Origin: an uncultured Bacteroidales bacterium
GTDB lineage: Bacteria; Bacteroidota; Bacteroidia; Bacteroidales; Paludibacteraceae
Direction of reading: 5' to 3'
Length of the DNA stretch: 50,742 nt
NCBI GenBank assembly: GCA_902799555.1
Contig: CADCBB010000013.1
Span: 1 to 50,742 of the forward strand
The notes below the pieces were generated by a model that searched no databases, was not told the DNA's origin, and saw only the letters and a list, made by a program, of their open reading frames with translations. Both the position numbers and the translations under genes were made by a program. Positions 11,708 to 50,611 of this stretch are shown here, one piece after another. How positions within the stretch are numbered: the first letter of the stretch is position 1; every line of letters starts with the position of its first letter.

Positions 11708-13299
11708 CTACTTTTGCCCAACTACTCGCTTTCCCCGGCGCAGAAGGTTTTGGTAAATACACCTCCGGCGGACGCGGCGGTAAGGTCGTTTATGTCACTA
11801 CGCTGGCGGACGATGCGAACGGAGAAACCGAAGGTTCCCTCCGTTGGGCCATGAAACAGTACCCCGATGAACCCATCACTGTTTGTTTTGCGGTAACCGG
11901 AGAGATCCGGTTGGTCAAGGACTTGCGTATCAACCGCAAGAACTACACGATCGCCGGTCAGACGGCACCGGGTATAGGTATTGTTATTACGCATAATAAG
12001 GTTAATTGCGGCGGATCGGAGAACTTCATTATCCGTAATATCCGTTTTCGTATCGGAAACGAGACTGCAAGCGGAGAATTCTGCAAGGAGAACGCTTTTG
12101 GTGCGGAGAATAGTTCGAACTTTATTTTGGATCATTGTGACTTCGGGTGGTCTGCTGAAGAGAATATCAATACTTTTGACAGCCATTTCTTCACGGTTCA
12201 ATATTGTATTGTGCACGAAGGCTTGTATAACTCCGGTCACCCCAAGGGAGCACGTGGATACGGCTGTCAGTGGGGCGGTTCACCGGCCACCTATCACCAT
12301 AACCTGTTAGCCCATAATAATGGTCGTTCATGTCGTTTTAACGGTGCACGCAACAATGACCGTGTGGTATATCTGGACTACATTAACAATGTGAACTTCA
12401 ATTACTTCGGAGGAAGTAGTGGCTGTCATGGCGGCGAGAATACCTGCGACGATAATAAATACAACGGCAAGAACTCCGGCCACGAAGTGAACTTTGTCAA
12501 CAACTACTATATCAAGGGCCCGAACACCACCAATACACGCCTTTTCTTTGTGGCGGACGAGAAACGTAGCGGAGCTACCAGTCATGGTCCGAGCCAATGG
12601 TACGTCAATGGTAATGTGTATGAGGGTGAACCAGGTGCAACGACCGACAATTGGTCGGCTGTGACCATCAAGACCTATACCCAGGCCCAAGCGCGCGTAG
12701 ATACATTGATCCGCACGAAGACACCGTATTGGGACTGTAATGCGGACTCTACAGAGTTTTCCGGTTTGTATGATTTTGATGATTTAGCCTATGCTGCAGG
12801 CACCTTTGAATCCGCAGAAGAGGCGCGTCAGAGCGTCTTGGATACTGTAGGTGCTTTCCCGCGCGATCATGTGGAGAATCGTATAGTGGCGGAGACACGC
12901 GACAATACCTACACCTATACCGGTAGCAAGTCCAACAAGAAAGGTATCATCGACACGCCTTCTGACGCCGAGGGATTCTATGACTATCCTTATGTAGCGC
13001 CGCTCACGGATACCGATCTCGATGGCATGCCGGACGAGTGGGAGAGTGCCAATGGTTGTGATCCTGCCGTGCCGGACCAGAACACTTTGCACTCCAGCGG
13101 CTATACGATGCTCGAAATGTATCTGGACTATGCCATAACCCATAAAGAACCCATGGATGACGGCTACCAATTACTGGGTGTCGAAAGTCCAAAGTCAAAA
13201 GTGGAAAGCAAAAAAATACTCCGCGGCGGACAATTGTTCATCCAGCGCGGAGCAAAAACATACACCCTTCAAGGGCAAGTTATAGAGGCAGGTAAATAA
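11644..13299 (+). CDS. Secreted pectate lyase-like enzyme (PL1 type)
   Basis: 551 residues. The only in-frame start that supplies a signal peptide is the ATG at 11644, inside the preceding gene; the peptide ends near FAQ (residue 26). The mature protein begins AFPGAEGFGKYTSGGRGGKV and continues as a right-handed beta-helix with IAGQTAPGIGI, IRNIRFRIGNE, NFILDHCDFGWS and HNNGRSCRFNGAR, as in family 1 pectate lyases, which cut polygalacturonate by beta-elimination. A calcium-loop-like DTDLDGMPDEWE follows near residue 459. The last 40 residues hold a heptamer-encoded linker and a motif GGQLFIQRGAKTYTLQG shared with the S8 protease at 20852-22243, possibly a sorting tail. It converges with rsmG, overlapping it by 20 bp. 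Confidence 0.85.
   Translation: MHHSSCTKRLALAAIGCLCAITTFAQLLAFPGAEGFGKYTSGGRGGKVVYVTTLADDANGETEGSLRWAMKQYPDEPITVCFAVTGEIRLVKDLRINRKNYTIAGQTAPGIGIVITHNKVNCGGSENFIIRNIRFRIGNETASGEFCKENAFGAENSSNFILDHCDFGWSAEENINTFDSHFFTVQYCIVHEGLYNSGHPKGARGYGCQWGGSPATYHHNLLAHNNGRSCRFNGARNNDRVVYLDYINNVNFNYFGGSSGCHGGENTCDDNKYNGKNSGHEVNFVNNYYIKGPNTTNTRLFFVADEKRSGATSHGPSQWYVNGNVYEGEPGATTDNWSAVTIKTYTQAQARVDTLIRTKTPYWDCNADSTEFSGLYDFDDLAYAAGTFESAEEARQSVLDTVGAFPRDHVENRIVAETRDNTYTYTGSKSNKKGIIDTPSDAEGFYDYPYVAPLTDTDLDGMPDEWESANGCDPAVPDQNTLHSSGYTMLEMYLDYAITHKEPMDDGYQLLGVESPKSKVESKKILRGGQLFIQRGAKTYTLQGQVIEAGK
13183..13210 (+). repeat. Four 7-bp units in the pectate lyase tail
   Basis: GAAAGTC, CAAAGTC, AAAAGTG, GAAAGCA in immediate succession. 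In frame they encode ESPKSKVESK, the linker before the shared C-terminal motif. Confidence 0.7.
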
Positions 13300-13894: not shown

Positions 13895-14610
13895 TCTGCC
13901 ATGTTGGTGAATACGTTCTGTACATCTTCATCCTCTTCGATCTTATCGATGAGTTTCTGTACAGACTCGCGTTGCTCCTCGGTTAACTCCTTGGTGTCGT
14001 TCGGGATACGAACAAACTCGATGGATTGAATCTCAAATCCGTTATCCTCGAGGTATTTCTGCATGTTGATGGCCTCGTTGAAGTCGGAGTAGATGACGAT
14101 GGTGTTCTCTTCCTCGTCTACGCCGAGTTCCTCTACACCGAAGTCAATGAGCTCGAGTTCGAGTTCGTCCAGATCGATACCGTCCTTCATCGTCACGGTG
14201 AAGCATGCCTTGCGGTCAAAGAGGAATTGCAAACTACCCTGCGTACCCAGCGTACCGCCGAACTTGGTGAAGTACGAACGGATATTGGCTACCGTACGCA
14301 TGTGGTTGTCCGTTGCGGTCTCCACGAAGATAGCGATACCATGTGGTCCGTATCCTTCGTAGTTGATCTCCTTATAACCCTCCGATGACTTATCGGTCGC
14401 TTTCTTAATAGCGCGGTCGATATTATCCTTCGGCATGTTCTCACGCTTACACTGTTGGATCAGGGCACGCAGACGCGGGTTGGAGTCCGGATCCGGACCG
14501 CCCTCGCGGGCTGCAATCGTGATTTCTTTACCTAACTTGGTGAATGTACGGGACATATGTCCCCATCTTTTCAGTTTTGTCGCTTTGCGATATTCAAACG
14601 CTCTTCCCAT
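13891..14610 (-). CDS. yebC: YebC/PmpR-family protein (TACO1 family)
   Basis: 239 residues with the family pattern: MGRAFEYRKATKLKRWG at the N-terminus, GPDPDSNPRLRALIQQ, NMPKDNIDRAIKKA, YEGYGPHGIAIFVE, NRT-like TDNHMRTVANIRSYFTK and GSLQFLF. Older literature calls these transcriptional regulators. More recent work on YebC-type proteins supports a ribosome-associated role in helping translation of difficult (proline-rich) stretches. Which applies here cannot be seen. The gene sits between an outer-membrane protein and rsmG; the 55-bp gap upstream is almost entirely a heptamer array. Confidence 0.93.
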   Translation of the reverse strand: MGRAFEYRKATKLKRWGHMSRTFTKLGKEITIAAREGGPDPDSNPRLRALIQQCKRENMPKDNIDRAIKKATDKSSEGYKEINYEGYGPHGIAIFVETATDNHMRTVANIRSYFTKFGGTLGTQGSLQFLFDRKACFTVTMKDGIDLDELELELIDFGVEELGVDEEENTIVIYSDFNEAINMQKYLEDNGFEIQSIEFVRIPNDTKELTEEQRESVQKLIDKIEEDEDVQNVFTNMAE

Positions 14611-14625
14611 AATATATAAATTTTA

Positions 14626-14667
14626 AAATCTTCAATATTAAATCTTAAATCTTCAATCTTCAATATC
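14626..14667. repeat. Six 7-bp units between yebC and the OmpA/TSP3 gene
   Basis: AAATCTT, CAATATT, AAATCTT, AAATCTT, CAATCTT, CAATATC follow each other without a gap. The last unit overlaps the stop codon of the OmpA/TSP3 gene (14666-14668). Confidence 0.8.
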
Positions 14668-17275
14668 ATTCCTCCTCGGTAGCCGGATCGGCGTGGTCGA
14701 GGATCGTCTCATAGTGTACTTCCTCGAAGCTGATCTTGAATTCTACACGACGGTTCTTCTGACGACCGGCTTTGGTCTTGTTATCTGCAATAGGCTGCTC
14801 TGAACCGTATCCGACAGCTGTCAGGCGTTGGAAGTCGACACCCTTTGCAATCATATAGTCACGAACCGCATCGGCACGTTTCTGCGAAAGGGCTTTGTTA
14901 ACCTCTGCCTTACCGGTGTTATCCGTATGACCTTGCACCTCAATGATGTAGTTACTATTCTCAACGAAGATAGCCGCAATCTGGTCAAGCAACGGGAAGG
15001 ACTTCGACTTGATCGTTGCCTTGCCGGACTCGAACTCAATACCTTGCATCGCCTTTTGCAGTAATTGACGTACCTCGCGTTTTACTTCCGGACAGCCTTT
15101 GTTCTCTTTCAAACCGGCTACACCCGGACATTCATCTTTATAATCTGGTACATCGTCGCCGTCGCTATCCAGCTCACAACCCTTGGCATCTACGAAGCCG
15201 ATGGCTTTCTCCGGCGTATCCGGACACTCGTCCAGATAGTCAGGCACACCGTCGCCGTCGCTATCCATCGGACAGCCTTTGGCATCGATACGTCCATAGG
15301 CCGCCTCCGGCGTACCGGGACATTCATCCATATAGTCAGGCACTCCGTCGCCGTCAGAGTCTATCGGACATCCCTTGGCATTGATACGTCCATAGGCTGC
15401 CTCCGGCGTACCCGGACACTCATCCATATAGTCTGCCACACCGTCGCCGTCTGTATCCAGCGGACAGCCTACGCTATCTACCTTACCCCATGCTTCACGC
15501 GGCGTATTCGGACAAAGGTCTTTGTAATCCTCTACACCGTCGCCGTCGCTATCCATGTCGCAACCATACGTATCCACATATCTTCTTGCTTCCGGTAGGG
15601 TACCCAAGCAATGATCCAGATAGTCAGGTACTCCGTCGTGGTCTTCATCCAGCGGACAGCCTACGCTATCCACAGCCACGCCGCGCGGCGTATCCGGACA
15701 CATATCGATCTTATCCCATACGCCGTCTTTGTCTTTGTCGCGACGGTTCGAGCCCCAGCAGATCGAAACACCCATACTGATGTTGAACATCTTCGTCTGA
15801 TCAGGAATGCAGTACATAGGAGCTTTACCCGGTGCAGTGAGCGCGGACGGTTCTTTCGCATAACTTGTAGGGATATAGTCCAACGCCAACAAAAAGTTCA
15901 AACCATCGTACGGCATAAAACTGATACCGGCACCGAAATTACTGTACTTACCGTTGTTCAGCAGCGAGTAAGTAGCAGCGATATTGAACCAATTGACCGG
16001 ACGGAATGCGAAACCGAACGTTACCTCTTCATACAAACGTGCGTTGTACAGGCGGGTTGCGGATACGACACCAAGACCTATACGGTTCTCCCAAAAATTA
16101 GCATCCAGACCTACATTCAAACGCGCCGAAGTCATACGGGCAAAACCCTTGGCTGAACCGGTGCTCATCCGGAAGCCCGAAAGCAGTCCCATCATGTTGT
16201 TGGTCACAGAATCTGTCAGCATCTGAGTAGAGAACTTTCCGTTCTCATCCAGATAGTCGCTATACTCGAGGTTACCGACACCATTAAAGAAGGTATCAAC
16301 CGTGCATTTGTACTGCGAAGCATTCGTCCAATAGATGAAACCGAGGTCGGTCAGACCCAAACTTACTTGTAATTGCTCAATAGGCTTCCATGCGAAACCG
16401 AAATCCAAGGCAGCTCCATAACCGGCAGGCTTGATAGCGTTCAGTATCAAGGCACGCGGATCTGAGGTATCAATGAGTTGAGATGCGTCAAACGCACCGC
16501 TCTTGATACCATCGATGATTTGGCTCGCATCCTTGTCACTAATATAACCGGCCAAGTAGGCATTGTCAAGAATCGGCGCAGATGCCATCGTGATACCGAG
16601 ATCACCTTGCAAGCGCCATTCTTCGGTGCTGGCATTGATATCCAGTTTTTTACTGTTGATGCCTACATAGGCTGTTCCTAATAGCACCTTGAGCTTACCA
16701 CCGATCGTCCAATGCTCGTTTATTTTGTGGCTGTAACCTCCGCTGATCTCTGTATAGAGGGTTGCGCCTGTACTCAAACCGGAGAGGCTGAATAAGTTAT
16801 TGCCTCCGTTGAGCTCTTTCATACCTCCGCCGATAGTGAAATCAAAGATGGACTTAGGCAGCGTCACACCCGCCTCCATTTTTTCATTGATACCGATGGT
16901 GAGATAGCCGTTATCCTTGATTCGTACACCTATGTTCAATATACCGAGTGTAGCATCAGTATTAAAATAGGTCATGCTACGAATCTGATTAAGGAACTTG
17001 GTCCTATCTGCCTCCGGGTGTAAGATGGTAATCGTAGAACCCACATTCTTATCATAGTATATGAAATCACTGAGTGTCAACGAGTTGTTACCTGCGCTAT
17101 AGTTCATCCATCCAAGCGGACTGAAGTTGATATAGCCGTTACTTACCGGCTGGAAGGCTGGGTTGATTGTATGACGCATAGGGGTGTTCTCCAAGAAATA
17201 GAGTGTCGTCACCTGTTGTGCGCTGATACTGAGTGTTGCCAATGCCACAAGGGCTGTCAAAATATACTTTTTCAT
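14666..17275 (-). CDS. DUF5723 outer-membrane protein with TSP3 repeats and OmpA domain
   Basis: 869 residues. Signal peptide MKKYILTALVALATLSISAQ, then about 490 residues of DUF5723-like beta-barrel sequence rich in alternating patterns and 'GxGAALDFGFAWKP' type strands. Next come about eight calcium-binding thrombospondin type 3 repeats (DSDGDGVPDYxDECPxTP...), and finally an OmpA C-terminal peptidoglycan-binding domain (IIEVQGHTDNTG near residue 770, and RADAVRDYMIAKGV). It most likely tethers the outer membrane to peptidoglycan. Two neighbouring TSP3 units are near-identical at DNA level with a 96-bp period (15281 and 15377), so the repeat number may vary between strains. The start is 13 bp after the stop of the partner lipoprotein, with which it shares a promoter. 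Confidence 0.85.
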   Translation of the reverse strand: MKKYILTALVALATLSISAQQVTTLYFLENTPMRHTINPAFQPVSNGYINFSPLGWMNYSAGNNSLTLSDFIYYDKNVGSTITILHPEADRTKFLNQIRSMTYFNTDATLGILNIGVRIKDNGYLTIGINEKMEAGVTLPKSIFDFTIGGGMKELNGGNNLFSLSGLSTGATLYTEISGGYSHKINEHWTIGGKLKVLLGTAYVGINSKKLDINASTEEWRLQGDLGITMASAPILDNAYLAGYISDKDASQIIDGIKSGAFDASQLIDTSDPRALILNAIKPAGYGAALDFGFAWKPIEQLQVSLGLTDLGFIYWTNASQYKCTVDTFFNGVGNLEYSDYLDENGKFSTQMLTDSVTNNMMGLLSGFRMSTGSAKGFARMTSARLNVGLDANFWENRIGLGVVSATRLYNARLYEEVTFGFAFRPVNWFNIAATYSLLNNGKYSNFGAGISFMPYDGLNFLLALDYIPTSYAKEPSALTAPGKAPMYCIPDQTKMFNISMGVSICWGSNRRDKDKDGVWDKIDMCPDTPRGVAVDSVGCPLDEDHDGVPDYLDHCLGTLPEARRYVDTYGCDMDSDGDGVEDYKDLCPNTPREAWGKVDSVGCPLDTDGDGVADYMDECPGTPEAAYGRINAKGCPIDSDGDGVPDYMDECPGTPEAAYGRIDAKGCPMDSDGDGVPDYLDECPDTPEKAIGFVDAKGCELDSDGDDVPDYKDECPGVAGLKENKGCPEVKREVRQLLQKAMQGIEFESGKATIKSKSFPLLDQIAAIFVENSNYIIEVQGHTDNTGKAEVNKALSQKRADAVRDYMIAKGVDFQRLTAVGYGSEQPIADNKTKAGRQKNRRVEFKISFEEVHYETILDHADPATEEE
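15248..15440 (-). repeat. 96-bp tandem coding repeat (TSP3 units)
   Basis: The 32-residue unit DSDGDGVPDYMDECPGTPEAA...GCP is repeated with only a few base changes at a period of 96 bp (compare 15281-15345 with 15377-15436). Flanking units are more diverged. High DNA identity points to recent duplication. Confidence 0.7.
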
Positions 17276-19277: not shown

Positions 19278-20693
19278 TTAGCGTAAGAGGTATATTTTTT
19301 CGGTAGCACGCGTCACCGCTGTGTACAGCCATCGTAGGTATTCCTGTTTTTCGGTCTCCGTGAGTCCGTTGATCCATTCTTCGGAAAAACCCGAATCAAT
19401 ATACACATGCTTCCATTGTCCACCTTGCGCCTTATGGCAAGTTACACAATAAGCAAAACGTATCTGTAGCGCATTGTAATAGGGGGATTCGTAGATCTTC
19501 TTAATGAGTTCTTTCTTGTTGCGTATCTCCGGATAGTCTTCCGCAATGCGGCTGAAGAGCTCCCTTTGCAGCGTATAATTGGCTTCCGGACTATCGGTCA
19601 TTAGCGTATCGATCCAAACCAATGCTTCGATCTCCCAGTTATAATCGACCGAACGCAACGAGGCCGTTGCAAATTGAAATCCGTATAACTCATGGCGGTT
19701 GGTAAGGCGTTGAATTTCAAACATATCGCCGTTGGCGATAAACTCCAAGTCCTCATACTCCTTCGCCCAGAAATAGTTGTTCTTCGTTACCATGATCCGG
19801 TCGCCGTTAGACAGATCCTCTTCCTTATACAACACCCGCGCACGCACGCCGCCGTTATACAGATTTGTCATCTTGTTGCTCCGTGCAATAATCAGTGTCT
19901 CTTCCGGACCCACTTCTCGCCAACTATTCTCCAAACTCTCAATTACCTCTTCTCCCTTAAGCCGAATAATATCTCGATTGTTACTATGTACTGGTTGCGT
20001 ACTATCAATCCTAGACCATTGTCGTACTTTTGTAATACGCTCCCTGATTCGTGTTGCTTCGGAAAGAACACCGCTATCCAGCGCCTGGCGGGCTACTTGT
20101 GTTAACTGAAAACTGACGACTGACAACTGATAACTATGCTGCATATATTCCGCATCCAAGGCCGGACTTTCCGTACTGCCTACCGGCGGTAATTGGGCAT
20201 CGTCACCCAACAAGAGTAGGGAACAGCCCTTTTCGTTATACACATAGCGCACCAAATCATCTAACAAACACCCGCTACCAAAGGTGGTGTTGTCCCTGTT
20301 AGCAGAAAGCATGGACGCTTCATCTACGATAAAAAGAGTGTTCCTATGCAAGTTGTCCGATAACGAGAAGGCTTCAACGCCTAACTGGTTTTGCCGATAG
20401 ATCTGCTTATGGATCGTATAGGCTTGTTCACCCGAATAACGGCTCAATACTTTGGCGGCTCGACCGGTCGGCGCGAGGAGAATACAAGGCTGATTTAACT
20501 TCTTTAAGGCTCGAATGACCGCACTCATCACACTTGTCTTACCTGTACCGGCATAGCCACGCAAGATAAACGCTTTGCGTGGATCACGGCTGATGATAAA
20601 CGCACCAAGGGCGGTGAATAAACCGTCCTTTTCTGCATTCGGTTCGAAGGGTATCTCAGCCCGAATTCGATCAATTATGAAGTTTTGTAGCAC
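19278..20693 (-). CDS. RecD-like ATP-dependent DNA helicase
   Basis: 471 residues starting with GTG at 20693; no ATG is available. A superfamily 1B helicase like those annotated RecD2/Exo V alpha in Bacteroidota. Visible motifs: Walker A RGYAGTGKTS (about residues 45-54), motif Ia LLAPTGRAAKVLS, Walker B FIVDEASML, motif III LLLGDDAQLPPVG, and C-terminal UvrD-like FAYCVTCHKAQGGQWKHVYID and YTAVTRATEKIYLLR. It probably unwinds DNA during repair. Oddity: the segment HSYQLSVVSFQLT is encoded by five consecutive 7-bp units (20104-20138), and a nearby stretch (KVRQWSRIDSTQPVHS) also looks looser than the family, yet the frame is intact. It diverges from the SRP RNA gene. Confidence 0.88.
   Translation of the reverse strand: MLQNFIIDRIRAEIPFEPNAEKDGLFTALGAFIISRDPRKAFILRGYAGTGKTSVMSAVIRALKKLNQPCILLAPTGRAAKVLSRYSGEQAYTIHKQIYRQNQLGVEAFSLSDNLHRNTLFIVDEASMLSANRDNTTFGSGCLLDDLVRYVYNEKGCSLLLLGDDAQLPPVGSTESPALDAEYMQHSYQLSVVSFQLTQVARQALDSGVLSEATRIRERITKVRQWSRIDSTQPVHSNNRDIIRLKGEEVIESLENSWREVGPEETLIIARSNKMTNLYNGGVRARVLYKEEDLSNGDRIMVTKNNYFWAKEYEDLEFIANGDMFEIQRLTNRHELYGFQFATASLRSVDYNWEIEALVWIDTLMTDSPEANYTLQRELFSRIAEDYPEIRNKKELIKKIYESPYYNALQIRFAYCVTCHKAQGGQWKHVYIDSGFSEEWINGLTETEKQEYLRWLYTAVTRATEKIYLLR
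20104..20138. repeat. Five 7-bp units inside the RecD-like helicase gene
   Basis: AACTGAA, AACTGAC, GACTGAC, AACTGAT, AACTATG without gaps, read on the + strand. Their complement codes for SYQLSVVSFQL. Thirty-five bases is not a multiple of three, so a simple insertion would have needed compensation. Confidence 0.8.
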
Positions 20694-20744: not shown

Positions 20745-20863
20745 CGCTTTTAAGAGTTATAGGTAGGTACTATACGACCAGCTCCCTCTGAACTCCCCCA
20801 GGTCTTGACCGAAGCAAGGGTAGGAGGTTGTAGCGGTGCGATATAGTTAGCCTACCTTTTTTT
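20745..20863 (+). ncRNA. ffs: Signal recognition particle RNA (small bacterial type)
   Basis: The RNA of the signal recognition particle binds Ffh and directs ribosomes making membrane proteins to the membrane. The sequence can fold into one long hairpin: GGTAGG (20762-20767) pairs with CCTACC (20851-20856), and ACTATA with TATAGT just inside. The apical part has the conserved AACTCCCCCAGG, TTGACCGAAGCAAG and GGTAGGAGG segments of the Ffh-binding region. A run of seven T (20857-20863) directly after the closing stem acts as terminator. The promoter upstream fits. The exact 5' end is an estimate. The convergent S8 protease gene ends inside the last stem. Confidence 0.88.
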
Positions 20864-23646: not shown

Positions 23647-25903
23647 TGTTCAATATCCATTCTATGGATTGTTGGTATAATTTTTCATATGCTCGTACGG
23701 CCTCTATGGGGAAACCGAACACGATGCTTTTCTTTGGCGTTCCTATAGCCGCCGGTACACGCATGTCTTCATATGTTGCAATCTTGACCGCTCCCTCTTC
23801 GGCTTTGAGGCCTTCGGGATGACAAGAGAATAGTTGCTCTTCGTTGGGCTGCATCACCAGTTGGAAGGCTCGTTTCCCATCCATTCGGATACGTCCGCTT
23901 CGGGTCGCATGCGAAGCATAGGAAGAGGCATGCAGGTAGCGTTTTGCCCATATCGGGTCAATCGCATTGAAATGATCCGTACTAATTAAAAGACGTCCGC
24001 CATTATCCATATACATGGCGATAAACGCTTGGCTGTTAGCAGTGAGCGGTTGTTTTTGTCTGCCGCATATATAGTCAACGAGTCTGAATCCTGAAAGCTG
24101 ATCACTAAAAACGTCCATCATACCTGCTGTGCAGCTGACATATGAGATCCCCATCTGCTGCAGGACGCGGCCATGAAGGGCGGTATAGTCGTGGGTGTTA
24201 CCGATGGTGAATTGTCCGGCATGATCCCGATAACACGATCCCCAGCCGCAATTATCATCGTTCTTCCATTCGTCCGAACGGGTGTAGTTCCATACCTCAC
24301 CGATATAGGCGCAACTAAAGCGGTCCTCGCAGGCATAACTACCCGGCACAATACCGGCGTAGGTACTATCGGCAAACCATTCGGGACCATACACATCGTT
24401 GAACCCGTCCACAATGAGTACTGCGTCGTTGTTCGTCAAACAAGCACTCACAATAGGGCTGGGGAACGAAAGTCCTCCGTCATTGCCGGCCACTACATAA
24501 TAGTTATACCGAATGCCGGGAGTTAGCTCGAGTTGTAGTTCGGTGGTATTCTCTACTTGCTGTACATTCCATTCTCCGTCATTGGCTTGGATATAAACCA
24601 TGTAGTAAGAAGGCGTAGCGGACGGCTCAATACTATCCGTCACGGCTTTCCAACGCAGAACACCATCTGTTCCGATACCCAATTCTTGTACAGGTAGCGG
24701 TTGGACGGTCGCATCCCGACCATTCAGATAGTGCAACACACCTTTGTACACCGCACGCGCGGCCGTAAAACGGAACTTCGGATCAAGACCGTAACGCATA
24801 TCGGCCATGTTCTTGTGGCTCAGCAACTCAAGGATAACACTCGGTACGACCGGCACGCGTGTCTCGCAGTAATTGGCTTCTTTGAGTTGACGTCGTGTCC
24901 ATTCGGGAGCGATATGTTTTAGGTCTTCTGTCACCTGCGTCTGGATCCAGTCTGCAACGTTACGGTTCGTCTTCTCTCTGTTGCGTCCGTCGCGCAGCAC
25001 ATACTGACCGTCATCGTCCTTGGCGGTATAGATAACGAGGGTCCCTATAATAGTGCTGTCATTGCCGCTATCATTGCCGTCCGTATGGAAAGCAAGGCAA
25101 AGGTCTATTGGTGTCTCCTGTGCATTGATCCACATCGCCCGACATTTCATGTCGTCTTTGTATTCATTACCTTCGTATAGGTCCCAAAGGGTAGAGTCTA
25201 CACCTTCGTTCATCATCCAGTAGCGTGCTCCTTCCGTCCAGCGTGGCATGCCGGAGAAACCCGGTTCTTGTTGGTCCAAACCGGCACGAGGCATCAAAAC
25301 CGTTCCTCCGGCATTCTCCAACATACGTTTGATAAGTCGCACATACTCTTGGCTGTACAGGTCTTCCACGGTCGTCCATAACGTCGCCCGCTGCCATATC
25401 CATTCGTTTCGATCCCGATTGAAATAGAGGCCATGACTTGGATACAGCGCAATCGTCTTGTCTGTCAAATCGCAAAATCGATCTGGAGAGAATTTACATC
25501 GTCCGATAGGTTCATTAGCCCTCGCACATGCAGTGATGAGCGTCTCGATGTCCGTGTTGGCACTGTATATCGTCACCTGACCATTGGTATGACCCAAAGT
25601 CCAAAGGCTGACCTTACGCTTAACGTCCGCGATATTATCAGGCGTCCAACGATAGTCACGCAGCGTACCGTTGGTGTAAATCACCACTTTATTGCCGCTG
25701 ATACGCATGTTCTTTACCCTCACCGGCGCGCTCCATACACGGGAGAAACCGGTGTAAGCAAAGAGTGAATCACTCAGTTCAGACATACTGATCTGGGCTT
25801 GGCAAAGTGAATGGTGAAAAGTGAAAAGTGAAAGGAAGAAAAGAATGAGAATCCCTTTTACGTTTAACCTTTCAATTTTCAATTTATTAGAAATCGTCGT
25901 CAC
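23639..25903 (-). CDS. Exported amidase-like protein with Fn3 domain; signal peptide made of heptamer repeats
   Basis: 754 residues starting with GTG at 25903, 17 bases inside the previous gene; no ATG precedes the mature part. After a signal peptide ending near CQAQ come a zinc-amidase-like domain with spaced His/Glu motifs (YPSHGLYFN, LAFHTDGNDS, ILELLSHKN) as in cell-wall N-acetylmuramoyl-alanine amidases, a fibronectin type III domain (SYYMVYIQANDGEW to SFPSPIV, about 440-500), and a C-terminal region with ILIVDGFNDVYGPEWF and DNGGRLLISTDHF. Similar proteins in Bacteroidales are often labelled xanthan lyase or golvesin-domain proteins, so substrate is open. Almost the whole N-terminus (residues about 5-30) is read from two heptamer arrays. 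Confidence 0.75.
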   Translation of the reverse strand: MTTISNKLKIERLNVKGILILFFLSLFTFHHSLCQAQISMSELSDSLFAYTGFSRVWSAPVRVKNMRISGNKVVIYTNGTLRDYRWTPDNIADVKRKVSLWTLGHTNGQVTIYSANTDIETLITACARANEPIGRCKFSPDRFCDLTDKTIALYPSHGLYFNRDRNEWIWQRATLWTTVEDLYSQEYVRLIKRMLENAGGTVLMPRAGLDQQEPGFSGMPRWTEGARYWMMNEGVDSTLWDLYEGNEYKDDMKCRAMWINAQETPIDLCLAFHTDGNDSGNDSTIIGTLVIYTAKDDDGQYVLRDGRNREKTNRNVADWIQTQVTEDLKHIAPEWTRRQLKEANYCETRVPVVPSVILELLSHKNMADMRYGLDPKFRFTAARAVYKGVLHYLNGRDATVQPLPVQELGIGTDGVLRWKAVTDSIEPSATPSYYMVYIQANDGEWNVQQVENTTELQLELTPGIRYNYYVVAGNDGGLSFPSPIVSACLTNNDAVLIVDGFNDVYGPEWFADSTYAGIVPGSYACEDRFSCAYIGEVWNYTRSDEWKNDDNCGWGSCYRDHAGQFTIGNTHDYTALHGRVLQQMGISYVSCTAGMMDVFSDQLSGFRLVDYICGRQKQPLTANSQAFIAMYMDNGGRLLISTDHFNAIDPIWAKRYLHASSYASHATRSGRIRMDGKRAFQLVMQPNEEQLFSCHPEGLKAEEGAVKIATYEDMRVPAAIGTPKKSIVFGFPIEAVRAYEKLYQQSIEWILNND
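25806..25840. repeat. Five 7-bp units encoding the signal-peptide core of the amidase-like protein
   Basis: On the + strand AGTGAAT, GGTGAAA, AGTGAAA, AGTGAAA, GGAAGAA. Read on the minus strand in frame they give FFLSLFTFHHSL, the hydrophobic part of the signal peptide. Confidence 0.85.
25864..25891. repeat. Four 7-bp units at the start of the amidase-like gene
   Basis: TTAACCT, TTCAATT, TTCAATT, TATTAGA. They encode SNKLKIERLN and also contain the stop codon of the preceding gene (25887-25889). Confidence 0.75.
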
Positions 25904-26446: not shown

Positions 26447-26481
26447 TATTATCTATTAACTATTATCTATTAGCTATTTTA
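26447..26481. repeat. Five 7-bp units between two exported-protein genes
   Basis: TATTATC, TATTAAC, TATTATC, TATTAGC, TATTTTA follow without gaps. The array runs from 3 bases upstream of one start codon (26444) across the stop codon of the GumN-like gene (26474-26476). Confidence 0.8.
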
Positions 26482-27364: not shown

Positions 27365-29313
27365 TTAAACCGTGTTATCAAATTATATGCCTGATAGATT
27401 CCTAACTCACCGGCTTTGCTCAGATCTGCCAAACCTTTCTCATTCTCGCCGATATAGATATAAGTCAGACCTCTATTAAAATACGCCTCCGCAAAATCCT
27501 GATCTACACTAATCGCGCGCGAATAATACTGAATCGCCTCCAAGTATTCTTTCTTGGAGCATAGCAGGTTCGCTTTATTATAGAGCGCAAACGTAAAATC
27601 GGGTTGCAGGCGCAGTACCTGATCATAGTCCCGCATCATTAGTTCATAGTCTGCTTCCTCCATACGATACCGCCATGTAGCACGGCAGAAACAGATGATA
27701 GGTTCAAGTTCTTTATCTGCCAACACGATTGCTTTTGTGCAGTCATCTACGGCACTGGTGTAATCCTTAATGATGGCAAACTCGATCGCGCGTGCCAAAT
27801 AACCTTCCGCATTATCGAAGTCTCCTACTAACCGATTGATCTGCGCAAAATGATAGTCTACCATCTCTGCCGTAAGGGCGATCTCTTGGTTCGTAAACCG
27901 CAAAGCAGCCGGCAGTACTTCACGACGGTTGAGTTGATCAACCAACACATGGTAGTAGTTCGTGCCCCTTAGACTCAAATCCTGACTGTAATAACTTAGT
28001 ACGATATTAGGTTCGTTCACAACATCTTGGTAACGTTTCTGTACTGTTCCTCGGGTTTGCGAATCGTATTTCTGTTCTTCTTCGGGCAGGTCGTTCTGAC
28101 TCTGTGCGGTAGAAGCCGAGAACTCTTTGCGATGATCTTTCTTCTGCGGCTGGGCGTTTGCAATAAGCATGTCCGTCTTCGGCTGCGCTGCCTGTTGGGC
28201 TTGTATCTCTTCCTTGCGGGACTCCAAATCCTGCGCCGTCTGACGATACCGATACGCAGACTTGGTATCTCCTTGTTGTGTCTTCGCTTGGGCTGCCATG
28301 TAATAAGCCGGTAAGAAATACGGATAGCGGGCAATGAGCGAATCCATATCCTCTACTACCGCTTTCCATCGTTTGAGTTGCATCTCTACCAAAGCCCGTT
28401 GATACCGCATCTCGGTGCGTTCTGGGGCTAAGGAAATGGCCGTATTCAAGTCTTCCAACGCTCGGTTATAATCTCCTACTTCTTGCCGCATTACGCCGCG
28501 ATTATAATAACAATCAGCATCGCGTGGAGCGATCTTGACCGCTTGGTCATAGTCACTCAGCGCTCCGCGGTAGTTATGCCGTCTGTAATGGATAATACCT
28601 CGGTTGATATAGTCGCCCGCCCATTTAGAACCCAAGTTAATAGCCTGTGTCAATTGAACATACGCATCGTCCTCCCGCTCAAGCATCAGGTTCGTAACAC
28701 CCAAAGCTGACCAAACGGCAGGGTTGTTCTTATCGAACGAAGCCGCTTGTTCAAAGGCCTCTAACGCGAGTAATGTATCTTTCTTGAGGATACACACATG
28801 GCCTTTCTCGCTCCATACGGACGCGGACTGAGGTTCGCGTTTGAGCATCGCTTCGATGTCCTCCAGCGATCCGTCGTAGTTCTTGCGCTGGGCACGTGTA
28901 TCCGCCCGCAAGAGCATATACGTGCGGTTCTCCGGAGAGAATTGCAAAGCCTGCGTATAGTCCGCCTCGGCTTCTTCTAACCGGTTGAGTTGGCGGTAGA
29001 TATATCCTCGTGTGTAGTAACAACCCGGAGAGAAAGGATTGCGCTCTATTGCATCGTTGCAGTCTTTCAATGCCCCCTGATAGTCCTCCAACTGGATCTT
29101 CGCGATTGAACGGTAGAAATAGGGTTCGGCCAAATAGGGTTTCAGACGAATGACCTGGTTGAAATACTGAATCGACAGCACATAGTCCTCAAAATACAAC
29201 GCATTCCGCCCGATCGCAGTAATGCGGTCGGTGTTGAGTTGCGCAAAAAGAGGAGTACAGAGTACAGAATACAGAGTACAGACTAATAATGCTATGTATC
29301 TAAAACCTTTCAA
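27361..29313 (-). CDS. Exported TPR-repeat protein
   Basis: 650 residues with at least ten tetratricopeptide repeats, for example LAEPYFYRSIAKIQLEDYQGA, DADCYYNRGVMRQEVGDYNRA and DFAEAYFNRGLTYIYIGENEKG. A low-complexity Gln/Lys-rich region near 370-430 separates two repeat blocks. TPR arrays bind partner proteins; the partner here is unknown. The frame begins with TTG at 29313, giving MKGFRYIALLVCTLYSVLCTPLFAQ as signal peptide. An ATG at 29327, two bases after the PBP1 stop, is followed by AAA but runs into a stop in another frame; a 14-bp pair of heptamers separates it from GGTTTTAGA. The signal-peptide core is itself five heptamers (29253-29287). Confidence 0.85.
   Translation of the reverse strand: MKGFRYIALLVCTLYSVLCTPLFAQLNTDRITAIGRNALYFEDYVLSIQYFNQVIRLKPYLAEPYFYRSIAKIQLEDYQGALKDCNDAIERNPFSPGCYYTRGYIYRQLNRLEEAEADYTQALQFSPENRTYMLLRADTRAQRKNYDGSLEDIEAMLKREPQSASVWSEKGHVCILKKDTLLALEAFEQAASFDKNNPAVWSALGVTNLMLEREDDAYVQLTQAINLGSKWAGDYINRGIIHYRRHNYRGALSDYDQAVKIAPRDADCYYNRGVMRQEVGDYNRALEDLNTAISLAPERTEMRYQRALVEMQLKRWKAVVEDMDSLIARYPYFLPAYYMAAQAKTQQGDTKSAYRYRQTAQDLESRKEEIQAQQAAQPKTDMLIANAQPQKKDHRKEFSASTAQSQNDLPEEEQKYDSQTRGTVQKRYQDVVNEPNIVLSYYSQDLSLRGTNYYHVLVDQLNRREVLPAALRFTNQEIALTAEMVDYHFAQINRLVGDFDNAEGYLARAIEFAIIKDYTSAVDDCTKAIVLADKELEPIICFCRATWRYRMEEADYELMMRDYDQVLRLQPDFTFALYNKANLLCSKKEYLEAIQYYSRAISVDQDFAEAYFNRGLTYIYIGENEKGLADLSKAGELGIYQAYNLITRFK
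29253..29287. repeat. Five 7-bp units encoding the signal-peptide core of the TPR protein
   Basis: GAGTACA, GAGTACA, GAATACA, GAGTACA, GACTAAT on the + strand; the complement reads LVCTLYSVLCT in frame. Confidence 0.88.
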
Positions 29314-29330
29314 CTCTCAACTTTCATCTT
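29310..29330. repeat. Three 7-bp units at the start codon of the TPR gene
   Basis: TCAACTC, TCAACTT, TCATCTT on the + strand. The TTG start (29313) and the out-of-frame ATG (29327) both lie in this array. Confidence 0.75.
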
Positions 29331-31597
29331 TACTTACATCCTTCATTCGGATCAAACCATGCCGGTACATCGAACTGCTCCTCGGGATTATAACCCAATT
29401 CCTGATCTGCGAGTACTTTTTGCATATAGAGTGCACAGATAGGCAGGGCCATTGACGCACCCTGTCCTTCTGCCATGTTATCGAAATGGATGGCACGGTC
29501 TTCGCCGCCTACCCATGTTCCGCTGACCAGCGAAGGAGTAAAGCACATGAACCAACCGTCGGAGTTGTTGTTCGTCGTACCGGTCTTACCTCCCATCGGC
29601 GCCGAGATCCCGTATCTGTACCGCATGCGAACACCCGTTCCGTGATCAATCACTTGACGAAGCATGTAAATCATCTTATAAGCCGTCGTCTCGCTGATGA
29701 TCTCGTGGGTACGCGGGGTGAAACTACCGATCACATTGCCGTTCGCGTCTTCAATACGGGTGACGTAAAGCGGTTCGGTTCGGATACCTTTGTTAGCAAA
29801 GGCAGTATAGGCATCTACCATCTCAGCCACCGTCACTTCACACGGTCCGAGACAAAGCGAAACGACCGGATCGAGTTGACCCTGAATACCGAATGAACGC
29901 ATCATCTTCACTAACTGTTCCGGTGTGAAGAGAGACATCAAATACGCTGACATCCAGTTAGACGACTCTTTGAGTCCCCAGGTGAGTGTGACGGTATCTC
30001 CTTGGTACTTGTCGTGCGTATCACGCGGTACGTAACGGGTGCCGTCGGGTAAGATGAAGACCACGGAGTCATATACCCAGGTCTCACAAGGCCACATGCC
30101 TTCATCCATGGCTAAGGTGTAGAGGTAGGGCTTCACGGTCGAACCTACCTGCCGACGACCTTTGGTCGTCATGTCGTATTGGAAATAACTGAAGTTAGGT
30201 CCGCCTACATATGCTTTGACATGACCGCTATGCGGATCCATGGACATGAAGCCGCAACGCAGGAAACTCTTCTGCCATTTGATGGAGTCGTACGGACTCA
30301 TGACGGTGTCAATGATGCCGTCGTAGGTGAAGACTTGCATCTCGCGTGGGGTCATGAAGGCCGCCATGATCGAGTCGTGACTGTATCCGGCACGTTTCAT
30401 AATACGATAACGGTCTGTCTGACGCATGGAGCGGTTCATGATACCATCTACCTCTTCCTGCGTCAATTGTTTGGAGAAAGGCGCGTTCTTCTTGCGTTTG
30501 AGTTCACGGAAGAAGGCTTTCTGTTGTGCCTGCATATGTTCGCTTACCGCCTCTTCGGCGTACCGCTGCATACGAGAATCGATGGTCGTGTAGATCTTCA
30601 AACCATCCTGATAGATGTCGTAATGGGTACCATCGGGTTTCTTGTTCTTCTCACAAAAACCGTACAAGGGGTTATTCTCCCACTGCCATTTATCCAACTC
30701 ATATTGTTGTTTGTTCCATTCAGCGTACTCACTCTCGCGGGGCTCTTTGGCGGTCAATACAACACGCAGGTACTCCCGGAAATAGGGCGCCGTACCTTGC
30801 TTGTGATCTACCGAACGGTAATGCAACTCCAGCGGTAACGCCATGACGGAATCACGGGTAGCCTCGTCGATATAATGGTATTTCTCCATTTGACTCAACA
30901 CCGTGTTACGACGTCGCGTGGCACGTTCAGGATGACGAACGGGGTTGTATAAAGAGGGGTTCTTACACATACCTACCAGCATCGCTGCTTCTTCCATCTT
31001 CAGTTTAGCCGGGGTAGTAGAGAAATAGACCTGCGATGCAGACTGAATTCCTACGGCGTTATAGAGAAAATCGAACTGGTTGAGGTACATAAGCAAGATC
31101 TCGTCCTTCGAGTAGAGGCGCTCTAACTTCGTGGCAATGATCCACTCGATGGGTTTCTGCATCGCACGCTCGAAGATATTATTGGCGCGAGGCGACCATA
31201 ACTGCTTGGCTAACTGCTGGGTGAGGGTAGAACCGCCGCCGGCACGACCCAGTTTAAGGATGGCGCGGAAGAGAGACTTGAAATCTACACCCGTATGTTG
31301 GTAGAAACGGGCGTCCTCGGTAGCGATCAACGCGTTGATGATATTCGGCGACAAATCGGTATATTGCACACCGATGCGGTTCTCGTAGCGGTAATAACGA
31401 CCCAAGGACTGCATGTCGGACGAGATGATCTCGCTGGCGAAGTTGTTCTTCGGGTTTTGTAACTCCTCCAAAGGAGGCAGATAGCCCAGTACACCGCGGG
31501 TGATCAACCACATCACAAACCAAATCACCAAGAGCCCTCCAATGAAAAGCCCCCAAAACCATGCTAAAAACGGTTTATACCAACTCTTTGTGTTCAT
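29330..31597 (-). CDS. Class A penicillin-binding protein (PBP1)
   Basis: 755 residues. A short cytoplasmic tail and one membrane helix (about 10-35) precede a GT51 transglycosylase domain (IIGTEDARFYQHTG-type ALIATEDARFYQHTGVD, GGGSTLTQQLAKQLW, KDEILLMYLNQFDF) and a transpeptidase domain with the three active-site motifs: SxxK in GSTVKPYLYTLA, SxN in ESSNWMSAYLM and KTG in GGKTGTTNNNSDGWF. It polymerises and crosslinks peptidoglycan outside the inner membrane. An insertion of about 120 residues between the two domains (KKNAPFSKQLTQEEVDGI...) is usual in Bacteroidota PBP1. It overlaps hemW by 4 bases. Confidence 0.95.
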   Translation of the reverse strand: MNTKSWYKPFLAWFWGLFIGGLLVIWFVMWLITRGVLGYLPPLEELQNPKNNFASEIISSDMQSLGRYYRYENRIGVQYTDLSPNIINALIATEDARFYQHTGVDFKSLFRAILKLGRAGGGSTLTQQLAKQLWSPRANNIFERAMQKPIEWIIATKLERLYSKDEILLMYLNQFDFLYNAVGIQSASQVYFSTTPAKLKMEEAAMLVGMCKNPSLYNPVRHPERATRRRNTVLSQMEKYHYIDEATRDSVMALPLELHYRSVDHKQGTAPYFREYLRVVLTAKEPRESEYAEWNKQQYELDKWQWENNPLYGFCEKNKKPDGTHYDIYQDGLKIYTTIDSRMQRYAEEAVSEHMQAQQKAFFRELKRKKNAPFSKQLTQEEVDGIMNRSMRQTDRYRIMKRAGYSHDSIMAAFMTPREMQVFTYDGIIDTVMSPYDSIKWQKSFLRCGFMSMDPHSGHVKAYVGGPNFSYFQYDMTTKGRRQVGSTVKPYLYTLAMDEGMWPCETWVYDSVVFILPDGTRYVPRDTHDKYQGDTVTLTWGLKESSNWMSAYLMSLFTPEQLVKMMRSFGIQGQLDPVVSLCLGPCEVTVAEMVDAYTAFANKGIRTEPLYVTRIEDANGNVIGSFTPRTHEIISETTAYKMIYMLRQVIDHGTGVRMRYRYGISAPMGGKTGTTNNNSDGWFMCFTPSLVSGTWVGGEDRAIHFDNMAEGQGASMALPICALYMQKVLADQELGYNPEEQFDVPAWFDPNEGCK

Positions 31598-37406: not shown

Positions 37407-38119
37407 ATATTCCAAATTTTCCATGCAGCTTTCGCTTGACCGTATAACATCTCTATACCATTTTGTGTTTTGGCTCCTTGTGCGCGTCCTTTGCGCAGGA
37501 AGACCGTTTCTTCGGGGTTGTAGATACAATCAAACAACAAATGTTGTGCCGAAATCAGTTCGTAGGGTATCGGCGGATAACTCTCCGTGTCCGGCACCAT
37601 GCCTAAAGGCGTACAATTGACAATAATCGTGTGCTCCGCCATCAAGCCCTCCGTCAAGTCGCTATAACCGATCATTCCGTCTTTCGGCGTTCGGCTGACC
37701 AGAGTAGTGGCTATGCCTAATTGCTTGAGTCCATAACAAACCGCTTTCGAGGCACCGCCGGTACCGAGCACCAATGCTTTCCTGTCAGAGTCTCGCAACA
37801 AAGGTTTGATCGACTCCATAAATCCGATACAGTCGGTGTTATAGCCCACGCGCTTATGCACCACGTTCACTGCGCCTACTGCTTCGGCTGTCTCATCCAA
37901 CCGATCCAGATACGGAATGATCGTCTGTTTATACGGCATCGTCACATTCATCCCGTCCAAACGATGGAATAAATCTTCAATCTTCAATCTCAAATCTTCC
38001 ATGTCGATAGGGTACAATGAGTACTCCGCCTCGATGCCTTCCTGCTCAAACTTCTCCGAGAAATACTTCGCGGAGAACGAGTGGTGTAATGGATAGCCTA
38101 TGATACCGTAGTGACGCAT
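37403..38119 (-). CDS. aroE: Shikimate dehydrogenase
   Basis: 238 residues. AroE reduces 3-dehydroshikimate to shikimate with NADPH in aromatic amino acid synthesis. Substrate motifs are GYPLHHSFSAKYF, the catalytic lysine in NVTMPYKQ and the aspartate in YNTDCIGF; the nucleotide loop is VLGTGGASKAV, and the C-terminal GIEMLYGQAKAAWKIW is typical. It is at the short end of the family, as in other Bacteroidales. Residues about 41-50 (DLRLKIEDLF) are encoded by four 7-bp units (37971-37998), replacing what is normally a variable helix. The start overlaps tilS by 22 bases. Confidence 0.94.
   Translation of the reverse strand: MRHYGIIGYPLHHSFSAKYFSEKFEQEGIEAEYSLYPIDMEDLRLKIEDLFHRLDGMNVTMPYKQTIIPYLDRLDETAEAVGAVNVVHKRVGYNTDCIGFMESIKPLLRDSDRKALVLGTGGASKAVCYGLKQLGIATTLVSRTPKDGMIGYSDLTEGLMAEHTIIVNCTPLGMVPDTESYPPIPYELISAQHLLFDCIYNPEETVFLRKGRAQGAKTQNGIEMLYGQAKAAWKIWNI
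37971..37998. repeat. Four 7-bp units inside aroE
   Basis: AAATCTT, CAATCTT, CAATCTC, AAATCTT on the + strand. The complement encodes LRLKIEDLF of AroE. The units are the same as in the intergenic array at 14626-14667. Confidence 0.85.
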
Positions 38120-45225: not shown

Positions 45226-45383
45226 AAAACGTTAATCGGTTAAAATGTTTTTTTATTCAAAAAACGTTAATCGGTTAAGATGGTCTCACTGCGTTCGACG
45301 TTATTCATGGTGCTGCATAGTAACGTGCGAAGCACCATTTTAACTGTTTAACGTGACGCAGTCACCATTTTAACCCTTTAACG
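45226..45383. repeat. Inverted-repeat element between bactofilin and DUF1015 genes
   Basis: Two direct copies of a 22-bp motif starting AAAACGTTAATCGGTTAA (45226-45247 and 45261-45282, 35-bp period) face two inverted relatives, CACCATTTTAACxxTTTAACG (45333-45353 and 45363-45383, 30-bp period). Between them ATGGTGCT (45307-45314) pairs with AGCACCAT (45331-45338), and ACTGCGT pairs with ACGCAGT. The whole segment can fold as one imperfect hairpin with arms of about 50 bp. The bactofilin stop codon (45370-45372) lies inside it. It resembles a small non-autonomous repeat unit, and could also end or stabilise the bactofilin mRNA. Confidence 0.75.
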
Positions 45384-46634: not shown

Positions 46635-46666
46635 ACGGATAGGTAATTGATAGCTAAATGCGAGTG

Positions 46667-49956: not shown

Positions 49957-50583
49957 ATGAACAAGATTAGTATTATTGTTGAGTCGATTTTAGGTGCAGC
50001 GGTGATTGCGCTGTTTGTGTTGTTTTTTACAGTAAACCCGTGGGCGAAGAAGCCGGCAGACGGTGAGGTTGAGGCGCAGGGTGAGTTGCTTCCGATCGCG
50101 GTAGTGAACACCGATTCGATCTTGGCGCACTACACGCTGGCGGTAGAGGCGAATGACAAGTTGCAATCGAAGTACGAGGAGTCGATGGTGAAGATGGACG
50201 GTAAAGCAAAAGCCTTCCAAAAGGAATACGAGACCTTCCAGAAAGACGTTATGGATTTTCAGCGTAAGGTGGAGGCTAACGCTTTCCTGAGCCGTGAGCG
50301 TGCGGAGAGTGAGCAACGTAAGTTGCAGAACAAAGAGCAGCAGTTGTTGGCTAAGCAGCAGGAGTTGGAGAACCTGCGTCAGGAGTTGAGTAATGACTTC
50401 ATGAACCAGCAGGCAGCGCTGACCCAACAGTTGTCGGATTCGGTACAGAGTTATCTGAATGAGATCAACGCAGATGGTCATTATCATCTGATCCTCAATA
50501 GCGCCGTACTGATGAATAAAGTAGCCGGTTATGATATCACGAATGAAGTGATTGAAGGACTAAATGCTCGCTATGCGAAGTAA
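49957..50583 (+). CDS. OmpH/Skp-like protein
   Basis: 208 residues. An N-terminal membrane helix (IIVESILGAAVIALFVLFF) is followed by LLPIAVVNTDSILAHYTLAVEANDKLQSKYEE and a long coiled coil rich in Gln, Glu and Lys (about 75-155, EQRKLQNKEQQLLAKQQELENLRQEL). It ends with YHLILNSAVLMNKVAGYDITNEVIEGLNARY. This is the pattern of OmpH/Skp periplasmic chaperones, which hold unfolded outer-membrane proteins. Here the uncleaved-looking N-terminal helix suggests it stays attached to the inner membrane. It lies 108 bp after the small membrane protein. Confidence 0.88.
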   Translation: MNKISIIVESILGAAVIALFVLFFTVNPWAKKPADGEVEAQGELLPIAVVNTDSILAHYTLAVEANDKLQSKYEESMVKMDGKAKAFQKEYETFQKDVMDFQRKVEANAFLSRERAESEQRKLQNKEQQLLAKQQELENLRQELSNDFMNQQAALTQQLSDSVQSYLNEINADGHYHLILNSAVLMNKVAGYDITNEVIEGLNARYAK

Positions 50584-50611
50584 TGAATAATGAATATCTC
50601 GTTATGACGTT

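Follow-up and report, generated by a model that had tools for sequence, protein, structure and literature searches.

Heptanucleotide tracts of a Paludibacteraceae genome as part of a genus-wide repeat population that is gained, lost and rewritten between relatives

Short tandem tracts with a period of seven nucleotides are scattered through the genome of an uncultured Bacteroidales bacterium, and the window considered here (the whole 50,742-nt stretch that was analysed) holds one genome's share of a heptamer-tract population that extends across its genus. Comparison of relatives shows that tracts are gained, lost and rewritten. The sites that host them are permissive ones, namely positions after stop codons, short gene junctions, signal-peptide-like regions and variable in-frame loops, their lengths are quantised, and their units form a restricted vocabulary that, as a group, does not derive from the flanks of the sites. 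The tracts belong to the known heptanucleotide repeat class of Xanthomonas, Nostoc and Beggiatoaceae, as a new variant (PMC4692102, PMC4679880). As to their origin, we tentatively favor, as a possibility that still falls short of probable, placement in trans followed by editing in 7-nt steps. A tract would usually arrive near-complete, copied from other tracts by template switching or ectopic repair at short homology; slippage would later alter it in cis, by a single heptamer or, where a reading frame must hold, by three (21 nt); and selection would act mainly to remove copies that break genes. We ascribe no dedicated regulatory function to the tracts.

Tracts were scored by comparing DNA with itself at lag 7 (+1 for a match, -2 for a mismatch), with segment thresholds of at least 9 or at least 11. 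The window contains 10 segments scoring at least 9 and 6 scoring at least 11 (Table 1), against means of 0.37 and 0.03 in 30 local first-order shuffles. The own-genome sample, which comprises the window and 20 further stretches (450,742 bases of a genome of 2,339,087 bases in 82 contigs), contains 67 segments of at least 11, where five shuffles of the same DNA gave 0-1; the excess of 7-bp runs over shuffled DNA that a preliminary description of the window presupposed is thus borne out at both scales. Heptamer tracts are confirmed as a genome-wide phenomenon, and by proportion the full genome would carry some 350 of them. Other lags in these 450,742 bases gave 0 (lag 5), 1 (lag 6), 20 (lag 8), 6 (lag 9), 0 (lag 10), 8 (lag 11), 1 (lag 13) and 11 (lag 16) segments, with 3 at lag 12 from a separate count. 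Over-representation of period 7 against other unit sizes (67 against 0-20 for the lags counted from 5 to 13) is a mark of the known class. A dispersed element of about 90 bp, built on the 11-nt unit ACCTACTAATC (L019:8766-8859; about 20 among the matches listed, in the relatives G114 and G015, at 81-94% identity), probably accounts for some of the lag-11 segments. Nine of the eleven sites listed in the preliminary description score at least 9; the site at 8972 lies below threshold and that at 49822 is only a weak 2.7-copy row in TRF, and a site missing from that list, 50581-50596, scores 9.

Table 1. Period-7 tracts of the window with their gene context and their state in related genomes (G numbers)
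Position	Strand	Unit	Lag-7 score	Context	In relatives
13180..13202	.	GTCNAAA (weak tract)	10	Near 3' end of ORF 11644-13299	
14627..14664	.	AATCTTC (gene sense GAAGATT)	19	1 nt past stop codon of OmpA-family gene 14666-17275(-), ahead of YebC-family gene 13891-14556(-) (Pfam)	Different sequence in G015 and G043
20104..20135	.	AACTGAC	13	Within RecD/PIF1-like helicase gene 19278-20693(-) (Pfam matches AAA_30/UvrD_C_2/PIF1); encodes SYQLSVVSFQL	
25807..25833	.	GTGAAAA	14	Second arm of signal-peptide-like cassette (~25787-25886), before gene 23639-25786(-)	Absent in G114
25870..25885	.	TTTCAAT	9	Inverted partner tract; adjoins stop of gene 25887-26408(-)	
26447..26478	.	TATTATC/TATTAAC	16	Over stop codon of TraB-family gene 26474-27364(-)	Decayed in G114
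29253..29282	.	GAGTACA	17	In probable signal-peptide part, upstream or at 5' end of TPR protein gene called at 27361-29199(-)	Same in G114; other heptamers at that site in other species
29310..29331	.	CTTTCAA/CTCTCAA	9	Junction after stop of gene 29330-31597(-)	Lacks exactly one CTTTCAA unit present in G114 (7-nt difference)
37972..37997	.	AATCTTC	13	Within shikimate dehydrogenase (aroE) gene 37403-38119(-) (matches PF08501); encodes EDLRLKIEDL	Unit CTTTCAA in G114, length unchanged
50581..50596	.	TAATGAA (short tract, 2.3 units; TRF)	9	At stop of ORF 49957-50583(+)	

Genes were called by a simple codon-score method, which misplaces some starts and therefore mislabels some DNA near 5' ends as 'coding'; signal peptides were identified by eye, and gene names more specific than a Pfam family are putative. 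With these calls, 35 of the 67 own tracts lie outside genes (66.5 per 100 kb) and 32 inside them (8.0 per 100 kb). The clustering at gene junctions described earlier therefore holds for about half of the tracts and does not extend to the 32 that genes contain. In 27 of 49 cases (own and G015) a tract edge falls in the interval from -12 to +10 nt around a called stop, where uniform placement in gaps would give about 14.6; intergenic preference and stop-codon proximity are both marks of the known class, and both are seen here. Neighbouring tracts no more than 100 nt apart are inverted in 9 of 21 pairs against a random expectation of 17%. Such proximity to stops and such inversion, together with the identity of some tracts in G114, would fit a selected regulatory or structural element, in which junction tracts are kept as hairpins, as stops in all frames or as tuners of translation of the next gene; yet six of the nine inverted pairs are copies of one signal-peptide-like cassette. 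We consider selection for such an element quite unlikely in view of the 32 own tracts inside called genes, the absence of a common unit or orientation, the 34 of 46 mapped G015 tracts that are missing in the own genome and the 11 of 40 sampled genus genomes that are tract-free over 12-20 kb. Several of the in-gene tracts are internal and in frame, and the frame stays open; heptad peptides that they encode include KGERLKVKGE, FQLSTFNFQL and KSPMTNHQSPM. By Pfam, tract-bearing genes comprise the AAA_30/UvrD_C_2 helicase, the shikimate dehydrogenase N-domain, an ABC transporter, a TruA-type pseudouridine synthase, a signal peptidase, an HflX-type GTPase, Rho, a DegT aminotransferase and PcrB. The tract in the gene for the transcription terminator Rho (L015:17814-19562) lies in its N-terminal region, and another lies near the 5' end of a called ORF (L019:13007-14158) that fuses PcrB and MafB19-like/cytidine deaminase domains.

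Tract anatomy was examined in 227 tracts scoring at least 11 from 1,413,063 bases of genus DNA. Lengths of 24-27, 28-30, 31-34, 35-37 and 38-41 nt are represented by 43, 29, 94, 8 and 17 tracts, respectively, and the length modulo 7 is 3-6 in 175 and 0-2 in 52; in simulations built from four or five whole units, by comparison, the maximum falls at 28-29 or 35-36 nt. Since lengths are mostly 7n+3 to 7n+6 with a peak at 31-34 nt, the typical tract consists of five cores and four spacers, that is, about five copies of a core of 3-6 nt that recurs every 7 nt, the letters in between being variable, as in ATTT GTG ATTT ATG ATTT CTG ATTT TTG ATTT. Variant letters are confined to fewer columns than chance would give (1.99 against 2.80 of 7 in 130 tracts, p 8e-17). 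Coding and intergenic tracts of the own genome and G015 share the peak at 31-34 nt (20 of 50 and 25 of 58, respectively). Arrays of period 8 have theirs at 34-36 nt (16 of 44), which likewise corresponds to four units and a few bases. Tracts of 2.0-2.4 units show no excess over eight control lags (277+70, or 347, against 316.5+64.9, or 381), those of 2.6-2.9 units a modest one (60 against 32.5) that extends over 2.6-3.3, and those of 4.3-4.6 units a clear peak (75 against 0.4). The number of arrays does not fall monotonically with unit number in the manner of slippage microsatellites, and the length distribution does not look like slippage.

These lengths weigh on the proposal that tracts arise purely by slippage in cis, in which a polymerase misaligning by 7 nt duplicates and extends a local 7-mer and the vocabulary is the sequence bias of slippage; the polymerase-footprint idea is attributed to Mrazek et al. 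2007 (as cited in PMC4679880 and PMC4692102). Slippage can claim the lengths of 7n plus 3-6, which re-annealing of the primer by 3-6 nt would produce, and the minor periods 8 and 11, as well as intervals that differ by exactly 7 nt (two sites) or by 21 nt (two own/G015 sites), two G015 sites with words of 10 and 9 nt common to the empty allele and the finding of the GAAAGGT unit in many phyla. As a complete account it is nevertheless doubtful, if credible, because the excess at 2.0-2.4 units is absent and the peak lies at 4-5 units, empty alleles hold no group-wide local seed, units are genome-specific, and 70 and 73 nt were gained at once where the gene pairs touch in two relatives. A dedicated short-template repeat-adding machine, like a telomerase or reverse transcriptase, or else a minimal mobile element some 31-34 nt long, working in fixed rounds, would accommodate both the missing group-wide seed and the like geometry of periods 7 and 8 (about four rounds plus core). 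The searches for MutS_I, Y-family polymerase and Y1 transposase yielded no candidate enzyme, however, and Y1 transposase, found in 42 of 121 genus genomes, has no match in the array-bearing G015, G004, G006 and G002; this explanation is rather improbable. We regard as unlikely a related reading in which, at permissive sites across the chromosome, conserved genes included, a dedicated activity would lay down some four rounds of 7 nt (or 8 nt), finish on the core and keep rewriting the tracts, each of which would amount to an enzyme-less mobile tract of 31-34 nt.

The local source of tract sequence was addressed with a seed test that compares the longest word common to a tract and its empty allele with composition-matched random windows. 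With power limited because the empty allele belongs to a modern relative, a first run (n=49) gave a combined p of 0.20, with 6 of 49 cases at p<0.05, and a stricter definition of 'empty' gave p 0.74 for own/G114 (n=14) and 0.50 for own/G015 (n=32). Two exceptions in G015 look like real local seeds, L039 17470 with 10 nt in common with the own allele (p 0.003) and L037 11193 with 9 nt (p 0.007), so that placement in trans has apparent exceptions in which seeding was local; at L347 6685 in G114 the tract's 7-mer TCAATCT lies in the flank (p 0.14). Other low-p cases were discounted: the tract at 26447 (against G114 and G015) faces a decayed tract, and L019 10020 faces another repeat in G015. Local templated expansion, the mechanism suggested in the preliminary description, survives in the single-unit cis change at 29310 and the seeds at L039 17470 and L037 11193; as a rule it lacks support, given the seed results, the absent 2-unit excess, the peak at 31-34 nt and the recurrence of units within genomes.

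This recurrence is seen among genomes with at least five tracts, where a unit is common to 467 of 8,944 pairs within genomes (5.2%) and to 1,097 of 37,112 pairs between genomes (3.0%); 467 was never reached in 2,000 label shuffles (p 0.0005), and composition alone would give about 0.3%. The known class would lead one to expect one dominant unit per genome, whereas the own arrays hold 33 distinct units among 59, the top unit occurring six times. Of the 34 lineage-specific tracts of G015, on average 29 have their unit among 59 other G015 tracts, 16 have it in the own genome and 14 in G114, random heptamers finding a unit in 6-13% in the same test. The corresponding figures are 3.9 of 6 at home, 4.0 in G015 and 2.0 in G114 for the own lineage-specific tracts, and 6.8 of 9 at home, 7.7 in the own genome and 8.0 in G015 for those of G114; an advantage of the home genome is therefore absent in the own (6) and G114 (9) sets. 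Against the favored reading stand this result, the modest excess of tracts at 2.6-2.9 units and the scarcity of exact 7-nt differences between the own genome and G114 (two independent sites). The G114 stretches L274-L293, which gave no usable overlap with the sampled own-genome DNA, entered the unit vocabulary only. Imperfect 25-mers form 26 groups, of which those printed with different flanks are mostly AAAGGTG/AATTGAA mixtures from distant genomes, and one is identical at two junctions of G070. An imperfect 32-mer common to three genomes was rejected as a copied variant, being orthologous.

Copying is also suggested by the signal-peptide-like cassette, which carries a heptamer tract at each end (inverted) around a conserved hydrophobic core (window 25787-25886; L016:2530-2640). 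Matches with a query span of at least 70 nt occur at four places in the own genome, nine in G015, two in G114, two in G086 and one in G006, and there are none in G070, G047 and G017. Cassette copies precede different genes in the own genome and G015. Three G015 cassettes stand before different genes of one gene row, and tract-bounded pieces have therefore probably been copied between genes.

Turnover was sorted automatically by flank mapping against G015 and against the close relative G114, which is 92% identical in the window region; the relatives were represented by one genome per species, and tracts listed twice owing to overlapping loci were counted once. Both flanks of 20 of the 67 own tracts could be mapped in G114, where 12 tracts are shared, 2 weak and 6 missing, the six including that at 26447, which is decayed rather than gone. 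In the reverse direction 22 G114 tracts were mapped (duplicates removed), 13 shared and 9 called missing, two of the nine being doubtful because they lie beside an own tract of the same unit. Among 46 mapped G015 tracts, 9 are shared with the own genome, 3 weak and 34 missing; 30 of the 34 have no own tract within about 200 nt and 4 have some own tract there, and the automatic sorting thus contains errors (2 of 9 'missing' entries for G114, 4 of 34 for G015). Intervals shared by the own genome and G114 are equal in length in 7 of 12 cases. Exact 7-nt differences between these two genomes occur at only two independent sites, window 29310 and, with another unit, L008 16516, and two own/G015 intervals differ by 21 nt. 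The unit itself has switched between the own genome and G114 at two shared sites, aroE 37972 and L008 16516, and the tracts at 29253 and L019 9302 are unchanged.

Rewriting at a fixed place can be followed inside conserved genes. The aroE site scores at least 9 in 12 of 30 genus loci, with the unit AAGATTG in the own genome, AAAGTTG in G114 and G131 (G043 similar), AAAGTCG in G015, G102, G116 and G034, AAATTGG in G091, CAATGGA in G046 and G002, and AAAGGTG in G006; the encoded loop equals the own length in 9 of the 12, being four residues longer in G046 and G002 and two longer in G006. The helicase sites score at least 9 in 23 of 30 genus loci, and there the peptide xYxLxVxxYxL is encoded by heptamers of the CAGTTAT, CAATTAT, CAATTAC, CAACTTT or GGTTACG type. 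In 29 order-level outgroups this loop differs in length by at most one residue, lag-7 scores are 0-6 and part of the Y.L.V..Y.L pattern is often already present, so that heptamers overwrote an existing peptide pattern with its length nearly unchanged. Gene junctions vary more freely in length. The genes at 27361 and 26474 overlap by 4 nt in the own genome, G047 and G054; tracts of GTGAAAG, GGTGAAA, ATTTGAA and AAATGAN separate them in G015, G070, G006 and G002, and five further species have other spacers. At the junctions 43973/41914 and 36330/35452, the genes of the own genome and G043 are a single nucleotide apart or overlap by 1 nt, and G015 carries paired heptamer tracts that total 73 and 70 nt. 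With two relatives to place them, these tracts count as gains in G015.

The wider distribution was surveyed in 40 further species of the genus, using stretches of 11-20 kb around the helicase gene (750,965 bases). This is not a random sample, and its densities are slightly biased because the helicase often itself carries a tract. Lag 7 yielded 102 segments in this survey, and the remaining lags between 4 and 13 yielded 0-27; tracts were lacking over 12-20 kb in 11 of the 40 genomes, and the densest had 35-45 per 100 kb, comparable figures for G015 being 45 per 100 kb in 90,948 bases. Dense carriage of tracts is a property of only some species of the genus. In other families of the order, eight genomes (126,120 bases) gave one match, in G028, where lags 8, 9, 10, 13 and 16 also score. 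Farther afield, GAAAGGT four times in a row occurs in at least 117 stretches of GTDB genomes from many phyla, the matches listed including Bacteroidales and Paludibacteraceae MAGs, Mucilaginibacter, Pedobacter, Balneola, Methylotuvimicrobium, Methylomicrobium, Wenzhouxiangella, Gallionella, Geobacter, Thiocapsa and Phormidesmis. Of the named records among these listed matches, the closest to the genus by blastn is RUG14447 (79% over 2.8 kb), followed by Paludibacteraceae Sheep_1_mag_28 (70% over 3.7 kb), matches that would place the organism among uncultured Bacteroidales, perhaps close to Paludibacteraceae. IMG/VR holds one stretch with (GAAAGGT)3GAAA (an exact 25-mer) against the at least 117 (GAAAGGT)4 stretches in GTDB genomes, a weak test of carriage by phages because it covers one unit only.

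Loss of mismatch repair and error-prone Y-family polymerases are classical causes of repeat instability, and either might be supposed to lie behind the tracts. Both are very improbable as the cause here, mismatch repair being judged by MutS_I. Of the 121 genus genomes 114 encode MutS_I, including all 51 good ones, and each lag from 2 to 6 gives 1-2 segments, part of which are runs of N. The Y-family polymerase (IMS) is found in 95 of 121 genus genomes and is missing, by elimination, from array-bearing G127, with 3 tracts in 11 kb, and G131. Conversely, G047, G053, G109, G014, G017 and G088 possess IMS and have tract-free stretches, and among the 40 surveyed genomes densities are 0-27 per 100 kb in the 7 without IMS, absence being by elimination for the six unlisted genomes, and 0-45 in the 33 with it. 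An enzyme co-occurring with high lag-7 signal, which the preliminary description proposed to look for, did not emerge from the searches for MutS_I, Y-family polymerase and Y1 transposase; these yielded no agent of tract making, and all three were rejected as explanations of tract presence on the genus-genome counts. A REP/REPIN system with a RAYT (Y1) transposase was likewise set aside, given the same Y1 distribution (42 of 121, none matched in G015, G004, G006 and G002).

Bacterial heptamer repeats are a long-standing observation, and G-quadruplexes, regulator binding and polymerase footprints have been conjectured to explain them. Heptamer repeats of varying unit number occur in Haemophilus hmw promoters; the 7-nt tandem unit is alike, but those are single loci under phase variation as opposed to a genome-wide population. 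The small dispersed repeats of cyanobacteria are reportedly mobile, with a conserved sequence of about 20-27 nt. Those elements, of about 20 bp, are like the tracts in being very short and dispersed (Elhai et al. 2008, as cited in PMC2884548). Closer kin are the GGGNATC and GGGGA(C/T)T heptamers of Xanthomonas and Nostoc, for which Rehm et al. 2015 follow one G-rich unit type and link a four-unit preference to G-quadruplexes (PMC4692102). Those repeats and ours have in common the period of 7, genome-wide and mostly intergenic occurrence near the upstream ORF, frequent inverted pairs, a preference for four units, and variation in length and sequence between related species (PMC4692102). They differ in that dozens of mostly A+T-rich units per genome, free of G-tracts, show a four-to-five preference here, and in the in-gene share, about half here against 7-11% in Xanthomonas and Nostoc (PMC4692102). 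The units lack the G-tract that a quadruplex would draw from each, the commonest (AAAGGTG, AAAGTCG, AAAAATT and AAAGTTG) being without GGG. A preference for four to five units among units without G-tracts suggests that quadruplexes are unnecessary to explain it.

The preliminary description knew of no established mechanism for Bacteroidales. That nothing is known there is corrected by MacGregor 2015, in which TAACTGA direct repeats are described from Beggiatoaceae, cyanobacteria and five Bacteroidetes including Paludibacter (PMC4679880). As here, the heptamers adjoin start or stop codons, other heptamers are mixed in (in some Bacteroidetes and Microcystis), and repeat-free intergenic regions of relatives are shorter; two Cyanothece differ by indels in 7-nt steps (PMC4679880). 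That study concerns a single motif, as opposed to the whole vocabulary with controls, genus-wide site comparison and in-gene rewriting treated here (PMC4679880). Long simple sequence repeats with units of 5-11 nt (Mrazek et al. 2007, at second hand through PMC4679880 and PMC4692102) share the predominance of heptanucleotides among long units; slippage and a polymerase footprint were proposed there, and the length distribution found here is unlike slippage. In literature searches that covered subscription journals only in small part, no publication surfaced on Bacteroidales heptamer populations that are in-gene or multi-unit.

The origin of such repeats becomes a testable question in a genus whose species range from dense through array-poor to apparently array-free, and whose tracts show in-gene positions, lineage-specific gains and quantised lengths. 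Because tracts rewrite signal-peptide-like regions and loops of conserved proteins, they are also a source of protein variation, one that annotation may take for ordinary divergence. Tracts that come, go and change spelling between species, between genes and inside conserved genes offer a good place to study how repeats originate.

Several other features were recorded alongside the tracts. A Bacteroidales small SRP RNA (RF04183) lies at window positions 20754-20861, between genes 19278-20693 and 20852-22243. The OmpA-family gene, which also matches DUF5723 and thrombospondin type 3 repeats, contains a 96-nt tandem repeat at 15122-15469. Imperfect tandem repeats of 35 and 30 bp with GTGCGAAGCACCATTTTAAC motifs occupy 45206-45383, at and before the start of gene 43960-45225, and an 11-nt unit, ATCCTATGGGA, is present in four copies at 46592-46635. 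Palindromes of the TTGCATATATGCAA type, followed downstream by a TTTTGCA element, mark a dispersed sequence resembling a promoter at L011:17396-17478 and 19361-19437 and at L008:14072-14118; this sequence has many matches in relatives, and similar sequences lie upstream of window genes 17289-19163 and 45370-45735.
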